Below are positions 18,189 through 23,022 of a stretch of DNA of 35,429 nucleotides, piece by piece. A program made the position numbers and the translations under genes. Every line of letters starts with the position of its first letter. The stretch's first letter is position 1. The notes under the pieces are model-generated. The model was given only the letters and a program-made list of their open reading frames with translations. It was not told the DNA's origin and did no database searches. This stretch comes from Candidatus Binatus sp. (GTDB lineage Bacteria > Desulfobacterota > Binatia > Binatales > Binataceae). The stretch spans positions 1-35,429 of the forward strand of contig NZ_JAUSKL010000080.1 of assembly GCF_030646925.1 (NCBI RefSeq), in the 5' to 3' direction.

Positions 18189-18251
18189 GATAATTCTCCC
18201 TTGCTACGCGAGGTCGCGAATTCGCTCGTACCATTGCCGCGACGACGTTCC

Positions 18252-19889
18252 TTATATCCGCGCGACTTGCAGTGAAAATGCAACCTCGTCGCGAATCAGC
18301 GCCCTGATATGGCAGCCGCGCTCCGCCACCTCGACCAGCCGATGGAGTTGCTCGTCGTCGATCGCGGTCTCAACTTGAAGTTCTACTTGAATTTCCTTGA
18401 CGTGCCCCTTTTCGTTCGACCGCGCCTGAACCGACGTGCGGCCGACCTGCATTTTGCGCGCACGCGCCGCTACCCGCAGCGACATCAGCAGGCACGATCC
18501 GAGCGCGCCCAGAAATGACGACACCGGATCGGGCGCGCTCGCATCCTCGGCCGAAAGCGGCCATCGAAGCCCGCCGTATCTCACCTCGGTCTTGAGCGAT
18601 TCGCCGACCGCCTCGATTCTCACCTCGCGATGACGCTCCGGCGCAGCAGTTTTCGTGTTCGCAACAGCGCCGAGAAAATCCGGCGCCTCGAGCAATGCCT
18701 TCACCCGCGTCGTGAAGCGCGACGCGTTCGCGCCGTCGAGTCCGCGATGATCGTATGCGATCGCAATCTGCATCGCGGGCCGCACTTCCGCACGCCCTTC
18801 GATCGCCAGCACTTCGTCGTGAATCGCACCGACGAACATCAGCGCCGATTGCGGAGCGAATATCACCGGCGTGCCGTTCTCGATTCCGTATGCCCCCAGG
18901 TTCGATACCGTGAACGTCGCGTTCTCGATGTCGGCGGGCCGCAGTCGCTTGTTCCGCGCGCGCTCCGCGAGTTCCGCCGCTCGCGCACTGATCCCCTTGA
19001 TATCGAGCGCGCCCGCGTCGTGAATCACCGGCACCACGAGTCCGTCTGGCGTATCGACTGCGATCCCAAGATTGATCTGGTCGTAGATCAGCCGCTCGCC
19101 ATCGCTGTAGCTCGCGTTGATGCGCGGATTCTCTTTCAGCGCGAGCACCGTGGCGCTGAGGATCACATCGGTCACCGACACGCGACTGCCGGCCGCATTG
19201 ATCGATTGCCGCGCTTCGAGCGCGCGCTTCATGTCGATTCGCACCATCTGCACGAAGTGCGGAATTTCCTTCCAGCTCGACGTGACGTTGCGCGCGCCGA
19301 CCATCTGAATCCGCGTGAGTTTCTCCCGCCGCGACGGCGCCAGCCCTTCTGTCGCAAACCCTGGCGTCGATGCGGGCATTTGCGCCGTCGGTTGCTCTGC
19401 GATTTTCTTCTCGCCGATTTTGCGAACGTCGTCTTCGGTAATCATGCCGTCGGGGCCGCTGCCCGCGACACTCGACAAATCGATTCCGCGTTCCGCCGCG
19501 ATCCGCTTCGCGCGCGGCGACGCGATCACTCGCTTCGCGCCCGCTGCCGACGCCGCCTTCTGCGGCGACGATACCGCCGCCCCCGAATTGCTCGATGCCG
19601 TCTTCGCCGGCGCCTCCACTACCGATGCCGTCAAATCGCTCGCCGTCTCGCCCTCGCGCACGATCTCGCCGAGCGGCAATCCCACGCCGACCACCACGCC
19701 TTCATCCGCCAGCACTCGCGCGAGCACGCCCGCCGCCGGCGACTCGATTTCGATTTCCGCCTTGTCGGTCTCGACCGTCAGCACCGCCTCGCCTTCGCGA
19801 ACATTGTCGCCCGCGCGTTTGTGCCACTTGAGCACGGTTCCCTCGGTCATCGTGTGGCCGAGCTTGGGCATCTGAATGAGAAATGACAT
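18252..19889 (-). CDS. 2-oxoacid dehydrogenase E2 (dihydrolipoyl acyltransferase) fused to a C-terminal OsmC domain
   Basis: Core acyltransferase of a 2-oxoacid dehydrogenase complex, 545 residues. Domains in order: lipoyl domain 1-80 with Lys43 in ETDKAEIE; Ala-rich linker; peripheral-subunit-binding domain about 121-157 (ASPRAKRIAAERGIDLSSV); catalytic domain about 185-410 with the active site DHRGLDG (His381, Asp385). Beyond the usual E2 end, residues about 430-545 form an OsmC/Ohr-like domain: GGLRWPLSAEDASAPDP, Cys466 in LGALGSCLL and Cys526 in AERGCHIRAL, the positions of the peroxidatic and resolving cysteines. The fusion is in one frame with no stop or shift. Third gene after E1 alpha and E1 beta. 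The substrate (pyruvate, branched-chain oxoacid or acetoin) is unresolved. Confidence 0.9.
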   Translation of the reverse strand: MSFLIQMPKLGHTMTEGTVLKWHKRAGDNVREGEAVLTVETDKAEIEIESPAAGVLARVLADEGVVVGVGLPLGEIVREGETASDLTASVVEAPAKTASSNSGAAVSSPQKAASAAGAKRVIASPRAKRIAAERGIDLSSVAGSGPDGMITEDDVRKIGEKKIAEQPTAQMPASTPGFATEGLAPSRREKLTRIQMVGARNVTSSWKEIPHFVQMVRIDMKRALEARQSINAAGSRVSVTDVILSATVLALKENPRINASYSDGERLIYDQINLGIAVDTPDGLVVPVIHDAGALDIKGISARAAELAERARNKRLRPADIENATFTVSNLGAYGIENGTPVIFAPQSALMFVGAIHDEVLAIEGRAEVRPAMQIAIAYDHRGLDGANASRFTTRVKALLEAPDFLGAVANTKTAAPERHREVRIEAVGESLKTEVRYGGLRWPLSAEDASAPDPVSSFLGALGSCLLMSLRVAARARKMQVGRTSVQARSNEKGHVKEIQVELQVETAIDDEQLHRLVEVAERGCHIRALIRDEVAFSLQVARI

Positions 19890-19923: not shown

Positions 19924-20898
19924 CTAACTCAGCAACTCGCGGCAGGCTTGATAGATTTTTTCTTCGTTCGGGATCACAAACTTCTCGAGCGCCGCCGCAG
20001 TCGGTATCGGCACGTCGGGCATCGCAACGCGCCTGAGCGGCCGGTCGAGATATTCGAGCACTTCTTCCATCAGCATCGCGCCGATTTCCGCGCCGACGCC
20101 GAGGGTCTTGTAACTCTCCTCGGCCACCACGATTTTTCCGGTCTTCTTCACCGATTCGATAATCGCCGGCCGGTCGAATGGATTCAGCGAGCGTGGATCG
20201 ATCACCTCGATATTGTGCCCCTCTTGCGCCAGCCGTTCCGCGACCTTCATCGCCTTCGGCACCATCGCGGAAATCGCGACCAGCGTCAGCGCATCGCCCT
20301 CACGGCGAATCGCGGCCTTGCCGAGCGGCACCAGGTAATCTTCGTCGTCGGGAATTTCGCCCTTGGTCGCGTACAACAATTTATGTTCGAAATACAGCAC
20401 CGGATTGTCGTCGCGAATCGCGCTCTTCAGCAGTCCCTTCGCGTCGGCTGGCGTAGCCGGCGAGACGATCCGCAGTCCCGGCGAATGCATGAAAAACGCC
20501 TCGGGACATTGCCCGTGCTCGGGACCGACGCCCGCCGCACCCGACGGACATCGCACCACCATCGGCACCTTGAACGCTCCGCCGTGCACGTAGCGCCACA
20601 TCCCGGCTTTCAGCACGATCTCGTCGGCGGTAGTGAAAAGAAAATCCGCGAACTGCAACTCGACCACCGGCCTGAGTCCCGTGATCGCCGCGCCCACCGC
20701 CGCGCCGACGAACGCATTCTCCGATATCGGCGTATCGAACACGCGCTCGGCGCCGAACTCTTCCTGCAAGCCGCTCGTGATGCGAAAAATTCCGCCGAAG
20801 TTCGCGACGTCCTCGCCGTACAGCACCACCGTCGGATCGCGCCGCATCTCTTCTTCGAGCGCTTCCTTGATTCCCTGTGCGTATGTAATCGTCCGCAT
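19924..20898 (-). CDS. 2-oxoacid dehydrogenase E1 component, beta subunit
   Basis: Beta subunit of the thiamine-diphosphate-dependent E1 heterotetramer, about 324 residues. It opens MRTITYAQGIKEAL, then VVLYGEDVANFGGIFRIT, RVFDTPISENAFVGAAVGAA and GPEHGQCPEAFFMHSPGL, all standard for E1 beta of pyruvate, branched-chain or acetoin dehydrogenases. The frame is open to a GTG at 20907, but the ATG at 20896-20898, three codons in and preceded by GGTGA, fits family starts. It lies between E1 alpha (37 bp upstream) and E2 (34 bp downstream) in one operon. No E3 gene is in the window. Confidence 0.93.
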   Translation of the reverse strand: MRTITYAQGIKEALEEEMRRDPTVVLYGEDVANFGGIFRITSGLQEEFGAERVFDTPISENAFVGAAVGAAITGLRPVVELQFADFLFTTADEIVLKAGMWRYVHGGAFKVPMVVRCPSGAAGVGPEHGQCPEAFFMHSPGLRIVSPATPADAKGLLKSAIRDDNPVLYFEHKLLYATKGEIPDDEDYLVPLGKAAIRREGDALTLVAISAMVPKAMKVAERLAQEGHNIEVIDPRSLNPFDRPAIIESVKKTGKIVVAEESYKTLGVGAEIGAMLMEEVLEYLDRPLRRVAMPDVPIPTAAALEKFVIPNEEKIYQACRELLS

Positions 20899-20935
20899 TT
20901 TTTTCACCGACTAGATGCCTGGCCCGGTTGCGGCC

Positions 20936-21892
20936 TCAGGCGTAGAGGTCTTCAAGCGCAGTCTCGGGTTTCATGAACGGCTGCTTCTCCATGAACGCGA
21001 TTGCGCGATCGATCTGCGCGCGCGCGTCCTTGTCGATTTCCGCCTTCGCCGCCTCGCTGAGCAGTTTCTCTTCGATCAGCTTGTTCTCGTAGATCGGCAG
21101 TGGATCTCGGCGCCAATGCTTCTCGACTTCCTCGCGCGAGCGATACGTGTCCGGGTCGCCAATCCAATGCCCCCACAGGCGATAGGTCTTGCCTTCGATC
21201 AGCGACGGCCCCTTGCCCGCGCGCGCATACGCGACCGCCTCGCTCACCGCGTCGTACACCTGCTCGACGTCATTGCCGTCGATCGTTTTGCCGGGCACGC
21301 CGTAGCCGTGGCGCCGATCCGCGATATCCTTGACCGAGGTCGATTGCTCGGTCGGCACCGATACCGCCCATCCGTTGTTTTCGCACAAAAAAATCACCGG
21401 CAGTTTTCTGACCGCGCAAAAATTCAGGCTCTCGTGGAACGTGCCGCGATTCGATGTCCCGTCGCCGAAAAAACACAGCACGACTTTGTCTTCATGCTTC
21501 ACCTTGATCGACATCCCCGCGCCCGCCGCGATCGGGAAGCATCCGCCGAGCGTGCCGCTCTCGCCGAGCACTCCAAGCTCGGGAAATACTACGTGCATCA
21601 CGCCGCCCTTGCCGCGATTGGTGCCGCCCTCGCGCCCCGACAAATCGCACAAGACCCGCTCGATCGGGATTCCGCGCGCGACCCAATACGCGACCCCGCG
21701 ATGCGCATACATCATGTAGTCGTCGGGTCTCAGCGTCGCGATCGCCGCCACTTGCAGCGCTTCCTGCCCGACCCCCGGATGCATAAATCCGCCGACCTGG
21801 CCCGCCTTGATCAACTCCGCGATTCGTTCCTCGAGCCGCCGGCTGAGAATGATCTTTTTATAGATGTCGAGCTTCAGTTTTTTGTCCATCAT
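20936..21892 (-). CDS. 2-oxoacid dehydrogenase E1 component, alpha subunit
   Basis: Alpha subunit of E1, 318 residues, which binds thiamine diphosphate and decarboxylates the 2-oxoacid. The ThDP motif begins GDGTSNRGTFHE at 143 and ends at ENN near 171-173. The upstream blocks FMHPGVGQEA and YMMYAHRGVAYWVARG match the family, and RGKGGVMHV is like the SKGRGGSMH block of pyruvate and acetoin E1 alpha. An AGGTGAT ribosome-binding site lies 6 bases before the ATG. First gene of the E1 alpha - E1 beta - E2-OsmC operon. The short length and gene order favour the pyruvate/acetoin type over the branched-chain type, with moderate certainty. Confidence 0.93.
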   Translation of the reverse strand: MMDKKLKLDIYKKIILSRRLEERIAELIKAGQVGGFMHPGVGQEALQVAAIATLRPDDYMMYAHRGVAYWVARGIPIERVLCDLSGREGGTNRGKGGVMHVVFPELGVLGESGTLGGCFPIAAGAGMSIKVKHEDKVVLCFFGDGTSNRGTFHESLNFCAVRKLPVIFLCENNGWAVSVPTEQSTSVKDIADRRHGYGVPGKTIDGNDVEQVYDAVSEAVAYARAGKGPSLIEGKTYRLWGHWIGDPDTYRSREEVEKHWRRDPLPIYENKLIEEKLLSEAAKAEIDKDARAQIDRAIAFMEKQPFMKPETALEDLYA

Positions 21893-22172
21893 TTTGTATC
21901 ACCTCGCGAAAGGCCCAAGTACGGCGGTCTGGACGAGCACTGTTCAGATGAGACCCCTTTAAAACGGTTCCGTCCTGCAACCTAGCCGAATCACCGGCAT
22001 TCCTACAAACCCGCGATTGATGCTCGGCGTTGATTGCCATCCGGCGCTCGATTCTCGCCGATCGCCAGCGCGTAACGACCGACCGCTGCAAGCTCATTGT
22101 CGTATCCGCGCCCGAGTAGCATCGTAGGCAAGTGACGATCACCGTGTAACGATTGCTGCGACCTCGCATCGT

Positions 22173-22180
22173 AAGGAGGT
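22173..22180 (+). promoter_or_regulatory. AAGGAGGT ribosome-binding site that sets the start at 22189
   Basis: A full anti-16S complement lies 8 bases before the ATG at 22189, ruling out the longer frame from 22153. The rest of the 296-bp spacer 21893-22188 between the divergent genes shows no further clear structure. Confidence 0.85.
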
Positions 22181-22188
22181 ATCCCGCG

Positions 22189-23022
22189 ATGGCGCTTAGA
22201 CGCTGGAAATTATCGATCGCATCCGCATTCATCGTGGCGGCGCTGGCGTCGTCCGCGATCGCTCACGACATGGGCGCGATGGACCACGACGATTCCAACT
22301 CCAACAGCAGCGGCACTGGCGCGATGGGCCAGATGGGCGCGCACATGAAAATGGGCGCGCATATGACCATGACCGATTCGCGCCCCGCCACGCCGGCGGA
22401 CACGGAGCGCGGCGAACTGATCGTCAAGACGATGCGCGACAAACTCACAAAGTATCAGGACTACAAAGTCGCGCTCGCCGAGGGCTACCTGCCCTACATG
22501 GAGACGGTGCCGCAGGACGTTTTCCACTTCGCGAGCCGCTCCGCAAGCGCCGCCGAATACATGGGCGAATTCGATCTCGCGCATCCCGGCTCGCTGCTGT
22601 ACGAAAAACAAACGCTCGGCGGATACAAGCTGGTCGGTGCGATGTACTCCGCGCCGCCGACCGACGACCCTGCGGAACTCGACAAGCTGATTCCGCTCAG
22701 CCTGTCGCATTGGCATGCGCACACCAATATCTGCCTGCCCGCGGGCGTGACCGAAGACGACGTGATCAACGGGCGCATCATGCCGAGCCATCCCAAATTC
22801 GCGTCGTCGCTCGATCACTCAAGTGAGATGAATCACGGCATGCAGATGCGCGTGGGATACCTCGCCGACGCGCGCTTCGGCTTCACCGGAACAATTTCCG
22901 AACAGGCGGAATGCGAAGCCGTCGGCGGCACGTTTCACAAACAGATTTTCGGCTGGATGGTTCACGTCTATCCCTTCGCCGGCGACGATCTGAAAGTCGC
23001 ATTCAGCACCGAAGCTCCCTAA
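22189..23022 (+). CDS. secreted His/Met-rich protein of unknown function
   Basis: Protein of 277 residues with a typical signal peptide (MALRRWKLSIASAFIVAALA, then SSAIAHD). The first mature segment (about 25-60) is rich in His, Met, Asp and Ser (HDMGAMDHDD, MGAHMKMGAHMTM), a composition common in copper- or other metal-handling proteins. The remainder is conserved-looking: GYLPYMETVPQDVFHFAS, SLSHWHAHTNICLP and FGWMVHVYPF, with several His that could bind metal. I do not recognise a named family. The next gene follows after 21 bp, suggesting co-expression. Metal binding is an inference from composition only. Confidence 0.75.
   Translation: MALRRWKLSIASAFIVAALASSAIAHDMGAMDHDDSNSNSSGTGAMGQMGAHMKMGAHMTMTDSRPATPADTERGELIVKTMRDKLTKYQDYKVALAEGYLPYMETVPQDVFHFASRSASAAEYMGEFDLAHPGSLLYEKQTLGGYKLVGAMYSAPPTDDPAELDKLIPLSLSHWHAHTNICLPAGVTEDDVINGRIMPSHPKFASSLDHSSEMNHGMQMRVGYLADARFGFTGTISEQAECEAVGGTFHKQIFGWMVHVYPFAGDDLKVAFSTEAP

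Follow-up and report, generated by a model that had tools for sequence, protein, structure and literature searches.

The window examined here (the whole analysed stretch of 35,429 nucleotides from Candidatus Binatus sp., contig NZ_JAUSKL010000080.1) encodes a dihydrolipoyl acyltransferase (E2) that continues in one reading frame into an OsmC domain. We could confirm this E2-OsmC fusion as a real and recurrent architecture. We tentatively interpret the protein as the E2 core subunit of a 2-oxoacid dehydrogenase (pyruvate- or acetoin-like, E1α-E1β-E2) that carries a YhfA-like OsmC dithiol domain fed by the lipoyl arm, an assignment that we place just short of probable. The gene and the domains of its product are:

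18252..19889, reverse strand: E2-OsmC fusion gene; single frame, 545 residues, ATG start
19662..19877, reverse strand: lipoyl domain, residues 5-76, with the lipoyl Lys43 in the motif ETDKA (PF00364 Biotin_lipoyl, 3.5e-19)
19422..19529, reverse strand: E3-binding (peripheral subunit binding) domain, residues 121-156 (PF02817, 5.4e-15)
18672..19334, reverse strand: E2 acyltransferase catalytic domain, residues 186-406, with the motif HRGLDG at 381-386 (PF00198, 2e-68)
18636..18671, reverse strand: linker, residues 407-418 (AlphaFold pLDDT below 50 at 413-418)
18255..18635, reverse strand: OsmC domain, residues 419-545 (PF02566 match at 449-540, 4.3e-13), with Cys466 and Cys526

The initial annotation had described an E2 that continues unbroken into an OsmC domain at 18252-19889, with cysteines at 466 and 526, and had called for a search with PF00364, PF02817, PF00198 and PF02566. 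All four models exceed their curated gathering scores within the single frame, and the C-terminal domain does score as OsmC (50 bits for PF02566, against a cut-off of 27.5). Cys466 and Cys526 lie where they had been placed and are the only cysteines of the protein. Judged by Pfam matches and motifs, the E2 part has a modifiable lipoyl lysine, an E3-binding domain and a catalytic domain with the HxxxDG signature. The model of the full-length protein has a pTM of 0.50.

The genes for both E1 subunits are located directly upstream of the fusion gene:

19924..20907, reverse strand: E1β subunit (PF02779 and PF02780; NF006667 above its cut-off)
20936..21892, reverse strand: E1α subunit (PF00676, 7.9e-80)

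None of the NCBIfam equivalog models for E2 or E1α (pyruvate, 2-oxoglutarate, branched-chain 2-oxoacid and acetoin dehydrogenase subfamilies) reaches its cut-off; E1β passes one subfamily model, NF006667. Elsewhere the window genome contains two matches to lipoamide dehydrogenase, one of them above cut-off, a homologue of the lipoate synthase LipA (lipA), also above cut-off, and four further E2 catalytic domains. A second OsmC domain was not detected in this genome at an E-value of 0.001. Divergent to the E1 genes, at 22153-23022 on the forward strand, is a gene for a 289-residue protein that looks rich in His and Met by eye and may be secreted; it matches nothing in Pfam (0.001) or NCBIfam (0.01), and is found in the same arrangement in three other loci (L076, L080 and L121).

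We surveyed the spread of the fusion with profiles in 148 genomes of the class and in a draw of 395 genomes of the phylum. With the OsmC part as query, 34 genomes of the class gave a match at 0.001. In 21 of the 148 the OsmC domain lies inside a frame of 500-628 residues, 10 of these genomes belonging to the family of the window (f1) and 11 to a second family of the same class (f108); two of them, G400 and G401, are each listed with a single contig. An assembly or sequencing error that joined two separate genes is ruled out by this recurrence. Two more f108 genomes have the OsmC domain in a short frame, owing to a frameshift that puts it out of frame with E2 (G395) or to a fragmentary sequence (G405), and in G410 a frameshift splits off the start of the lipoyl domain. 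The initial annotation had asked how widespread the architecture is, and within the class it thus extends to two families.

The link between OsmC and this particular E2 is tight. Twenty-two of the 148 genomes have an E1β that is 61-100% identical to that of the window, and 21 of them have OsmC after E2; in the 22nd, G402, the contig stops 26 residues into E2. OsmC is in one frame with E2 in 20 of the 21 assessable genomes. In G439, E1β and E2-OsmC are on separate contigs, each at a contig end. A more distant E1β (54% identity) in G460 has a neighbour with lipoyl and E3-binding domains and no OsmC, so a related E1β by itself is no proof of the fusion. This neighbour, a 559-residue frame beside the E1 genes (L120:5150-6829, reverse strand), matches the window E2 over residues 5-155 only (tblastn, 1e-3). 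Neither an E2 catalytic domain nor OsmC was matched there by tblastn with the window E2, making it an unusual lipoyl-bearing protein in its own right.

In the phylum draw, for which the best 10 candidates per genome were scored, the OsmC profile gave at least 27 matches in 26 genomes (E-values up to 1e-15). Among the matches listed, the frames are the window's own (558 residues), nine of 408-457 residues and 17 of 140-234 residues, and the window's own is the sole match in an E2-sized frame among these best 10 candidates per genome. The nine frames of intermediate length resemble the known hydrolase-OsmC layout, their starts being hydrolase-like by eye only. With the whole protein as query (best three candidates per genome), no match listed other than the window's passes residue 429. 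An exact-pattern scan of contigs returned five fused loci, all within f1 genomes and none from f108, together with one E2 from Gemmatimonadetes whose match covers residues 1-406; contigs L002-L006 belong to G411, G423, G439, G438 and G440, respectively, and each was counted once. Nine plasmid records were found, annotated at the match as hydrolase/OsmC (one), OsmC family (three) or hypothetical (one), with four lacking annotation. The initial annotation knew of no standard description of the architecture, and among the titles and abstract openings of the open-licence PMC literature we likewise found no E2-OsmC fusion described.

On the number of fusion events, one or two, the E2 and OsmC sequences point in different directions. 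In a tree of E2 sequences, 20 fused proteins are separated from 14 unfused ones by a branch with support of 100/98. These are 34 of the 40 rows of the underlying alignment, from which six stand-alone OsmC proteins were left out; PF02566 matches 26 of the 40 members, the number of the fused and stand-alone rows taken together. The E2 tree thus gives a single fused clade. In a tree of the OsmC domains of 36 genes, whose rooting is unsafe because the outgroup branches are very long, the f1 domains, both fused and alone, join a stand-alone f108 paralogue and not the fused f108 domains. The mean identities agree with this grouping (40.9% between fused f1 and stand-alone f108 domains, 34.9% between fused f1 and fused f108 domains) and count against a simple single fusion.

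The model of the OsmC domain has a pLDDT of 94, and its first 30 structural matches, with Z-scores of 12.1-15.8 over the whole domain length, are all OsmC-like, Ohr or unnamed entries. The highest Z-score belongs to an OsmC-like protein from Mycoplasma pneumoniae (1lql, 15.8). Among full-length matches, the lowest r.m.s. deviation (1.9 Å; Z 14.6, 17% identity) is to 1ml8, an entry titled 'structural genomics' by the search tool, which we take to be E. coli YhfA. The Ohr chain 6d9n_B reaches the same Z-score as 1ml8, so the fold alone cannot separate the subfamilies. The nearest PDB entry by domain profile is 9wo1_A (3.2e-22), which has OsmC at residues 263-391 of 400. No curated Ohr or OsmC family model of NCBIfam is reached by the window domain: the best model, NF041052 (OsmC_like_Se), gives 48.7 bits against a cut-off of 95 and matches every row of our 37-row OsmC alignment, while the Ohr model TIGR03561 gives 20.1 bits against a cut-off of 88.85.

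The OsmC alignment represents 36 genes (one gene appears twice, as L057 and L072) and includes three distant rows of the same class, L064-L066. Cys466 and Cys526 are invariant in all 37 rows and align with the cysteines of Ohr. In Ohr, an arginine and a glutamate assist the peroxidatic cysteine (excerpts from PMC5962072). By comparison with the Ohr structures 3eer and 6mjn, the glutamate position is occupied by Val or Ile in 34/34 rows of the domain family of the fusion; E, Y and E are found there in the three distant rows. Opposite the Ohr arginine, the window protein has Glu430, and Arg is absent from this position in all 30 rows that have a letter there. This result is less firm than that for the glutamate because it comes from a sequence alignment of a mobile loop: Arg is present one position on, at 431, in four fused f108 rows, and within three positions (427-433) in 12 of the 34, which may indicate a displaced arginine. 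According to excerpts from PMC8945050, YhfA proteins keep both cysteines, lack Arg and Glu, and are uncharacterised biochemically. The OsmC domain of the fusion has the same set of traits.

These residues bear directly on the initial annotation, which saw in the domain an Ohr/OsmC peroxidase of organic hydroperoxides, dependent on lipoyl groups and tethered to its electron donor. We consider this unlikely in its classical form. That some Ohr and OsmC enzymes are reduced by lipoylated systems holds good (excerpts from PMC8945050), and the fold and the two cysteines are those of the family. Ohr structures also match the domain model well (Z 12-14.6), TIGR03561 matches 13 of the 37 members weakly, at 0.001, and a stand-alone paralogue has thiol-redox neighbours (see below). 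However, the Ohr Glu and Arg have no aligned counterparts, which weakens the peroxidase part of the earlier interpretation, and a fused OsmC protein that has been assayed does not encourage it. In the excerpts from PMC5113044, the full-length esterase-OsmC protein EstRM has no significant peroxidase activity with DTT and is inactive on H2O2 and cumene hydroperoxide. The earlier interpretation as a whole is therefore partly supported, and the label 'Ohr/OsmC peroxidase' appears to go beyond what the residues suggest.

Tethering is not essential either. Two f1 genomes, G412 (85% complete) and G443 (94%), have a stand-alone OsmC gene (138 and 163 residues) where their relatives have E1α-E1β-E2-OsmC:

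L070:1337-1753 (G412): stand-alone OsmC gene
L071:7944-8435 (G443): stand-alone OsmC gene

No E1α, E1β or E2 was found by tblastn in the stretches around these genes. Neither genome yielded a second OsmC domain, and both contain another E2. The domain can therefore exist untethered. When three linked proteins from eight loci are placed in an unrooted tree (GST left out; 592 shared columns, fewer for L077), G412 and G443 are found in different places, that of G443 with weak to moderate support (82.6/79). Two losses of E1-E2 with retention of OsmC would be the simplest reading.

The stand-alone genes share their surroundings with the fused ones. Both precede the same genes for a glutathione S-transferase (GST), a luciferase-like oxidoreductase (LLM) and a zinc alcohol dehydrogenase (ADH) that follow the fusion in relatives of the window, and a promoter-like motif is found upstream of fused and stand-alone loci alike. 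The relevant features of the window are:

21978..22008, reverse strand: promoter-like motif TTGTAG-N14-CGGCTANNTTG, upstream of E1α; one match in the window, none in 100 shuffles
18189..18251, reverse strand: gap with a GST remnant, WYERIRDLA-stop, recognised by direct comparison with the last codons of GST in L002

The motif recurs exactly upstream of the stand-alone OsmC in G412 and, with one base fewer in the spacer, upstream of that in G443; L078 and L079 deviate by individual bases; the pattern is present in 10 of 121 loci, representing five genomes (G000, G411, G412, G415 and G423). The shuffle count shows only that the string is uncommon and is no independent test, because the pattern was derived from the same loci, and a scan with the sigma-70 consensus found no promoter. 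At the position of the gap, L002, L076 and L078 have a GST gene; the GST gene seems to have been deleted in the window, leaving a scar behind.

This arrangement raises the question of whether the fusion is only a loose one, in which OsmC has its own role, perhaps together with the GST/LLM/alcohol dehydrogenase neighbours, and is joined to E2 for dosage alone. The near-identical motif, the same downstream genes and the separate (in one case weakly supported) places of G412 and G443 in the linked-gene tree all fit such an explanation. Yet OsmC lies beside E2 in every one of the 21 assessable genomes, in two families and with a single exception in one frame, and the complete GST-LLM-ADH set follows the fusion in just four of the eight f1 loci compared (L004, L076, L078 and L080). 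In the window, LLM and ADH follow the fusion and GST is reduced to its tail, L077 has LLM alone of the set, and L075 and L079 have none of it adjacent. We regard loose coupling as improbable, to about the same degree as the classical peroxidase. A structural role is less likely still. OsmC/Ohr proteins are homodimers in their active form (excerpts from PMC8945050), and a dimerising OsmC domain at the C-terminus of the E2 core would pair E2 trimers and shape or stabilise the core, with its cysteines a relic or a redox switch; the end of the catalytic domain does look altered by eye in several fused proteins. But neither the retention of both cysteines in 37 of 37 rows nor the survival of OsmC without E2 in two genomes fits well with this.

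We read four stand-alone OsmC loci in f108. In two of them, L068 and L074, the genes beside OsmC encode a glyoxalase-like protein and a DsbD_TM/AhpC-TSA protein; a neighbour of OsmC in L082 begins in a similar way, judged by eye, and L072 has no redox neighbour. The OsmC paralogue and its neighbours at L068:6816-9001 form a thiol-redox cluster.

Ahead of the classical peroxidase, the loosely coupled fusion and the structural role, we rank a lipoyl-fed dithiol module, the most plausible of the four though not one that we would call probable. The cysteine pair, behind the low-confidence linker (413-418) at the end of E2, would be well placed for reduction by lipoyl groups. The dihydrolipoyl arm would reduce the Cys466-Cys526 disulphide of an OsmC domain of the same complex and would itself be recharged by E3 from NADH. 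The complex would then also supply electrons for a thiol-redox reaction of the OsmC domain, for which a small disulphide or an electrophile is perhaps a likelier substrate than an organic hydroperoxide. That the swinging lipoyl arm passes acyl groups to CoA and also electrons to the YhfA-like OsmC domain of the same chain is a slightly more doubtful proposition than the module itself.

The lipoyl-fed module draws its support from the four domains, the adjacent E1 genes, the recurrence of the fusion in the class, the grouping of the fused E2s on one side of a branch, the retention of OsmC after E2, the invariant cysteines, and the lipA and lipoamide dehydrogenase homologues. It is also favoured by the supply of electrons to Ohr/OsmC from lipoylated systems (excerpts from PMC8945050), the redox neighbourhood of stand-alone OsmC in f108, and the lack of any other OsmC domain detected in the window genome. 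Against it are the occurrence of OsmC alone in G412 and G443, the f108 locus without a redox neighbour (L072), and the behaviour of two relatives: EstRM (PMC5113044) and the single-cysteine OsmC/Ohr-like protein FTN_1133, which according to excerpts from PMC4069020 has no peroxidase activity with lipoamide or other thiols.

YhfA-type and esterase-fused OsmC domains have conserved cysteines and no known reaction (excerpts from PMC8945050 and PMC5113044). Where such a domain is naturally joined to an E2 that bears a lipoyl group, a candidate electron donor is at hand, which makes its chemistry directly testable. If the lipoyl arm does have two roles, the fusion would be a tractable case for finding out what YhfA-like OsmC domains do. 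Apart from function, the E2 core is shown to accept an extra enzyme-like domain at its C-terminus.

The fusion shares features with several known systems and is identical to none of them. With lipoyl-dependent Ohr/OsmC peroxidases, such as Xylella fastidiosa Ohr, it has the fold and two aligned cysteines in common; these peroxidases, however, are separate small proteins with an active-site Arg and Glu (excerpts from PMC5962072), whose aligned counterparts are absent here. The pattern of two cysteines without Arg or Glu is that of the YhfA type (traits from excerpts of PMC8945050), but YhfA-type proteins are stand-alone, and by Z-score other OsmC-like chains outrank 1ml8. OsmC domain/YcaO domain proteins (TIGR03549, matched by one of the 37 rows) are likewise multidomain proteins with OsmC, carrying YcaO where the fusion has E2. 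The E2 part resembles the E2 of pyruvate and acetoin dehydrogenases in its lipoyl, peripheral-subunit-binding and acyltransferase domains and in the E1α and E1β alongside, and differs in the extra C-terminal OsmC domain and in scoring below every NCBIfam E2 equivalog cut-off. A comparable layout is that of the esterase/hydrolase-OsmC fusions (the EstRM family and probably PDB 9wo1, the first part of which is, from its layout, presumably a hydrolase), which have OsmC C-terminal to a metabolic enzyme. By Pfam, the window protein has no N-terminal α/β hydrolase domain, and lipoyl, E3-binding and acyltransferase domains are found in its place. OsmC domains are thus known to fuse to metabolic enzymes, and E2 is an addition to their partners.
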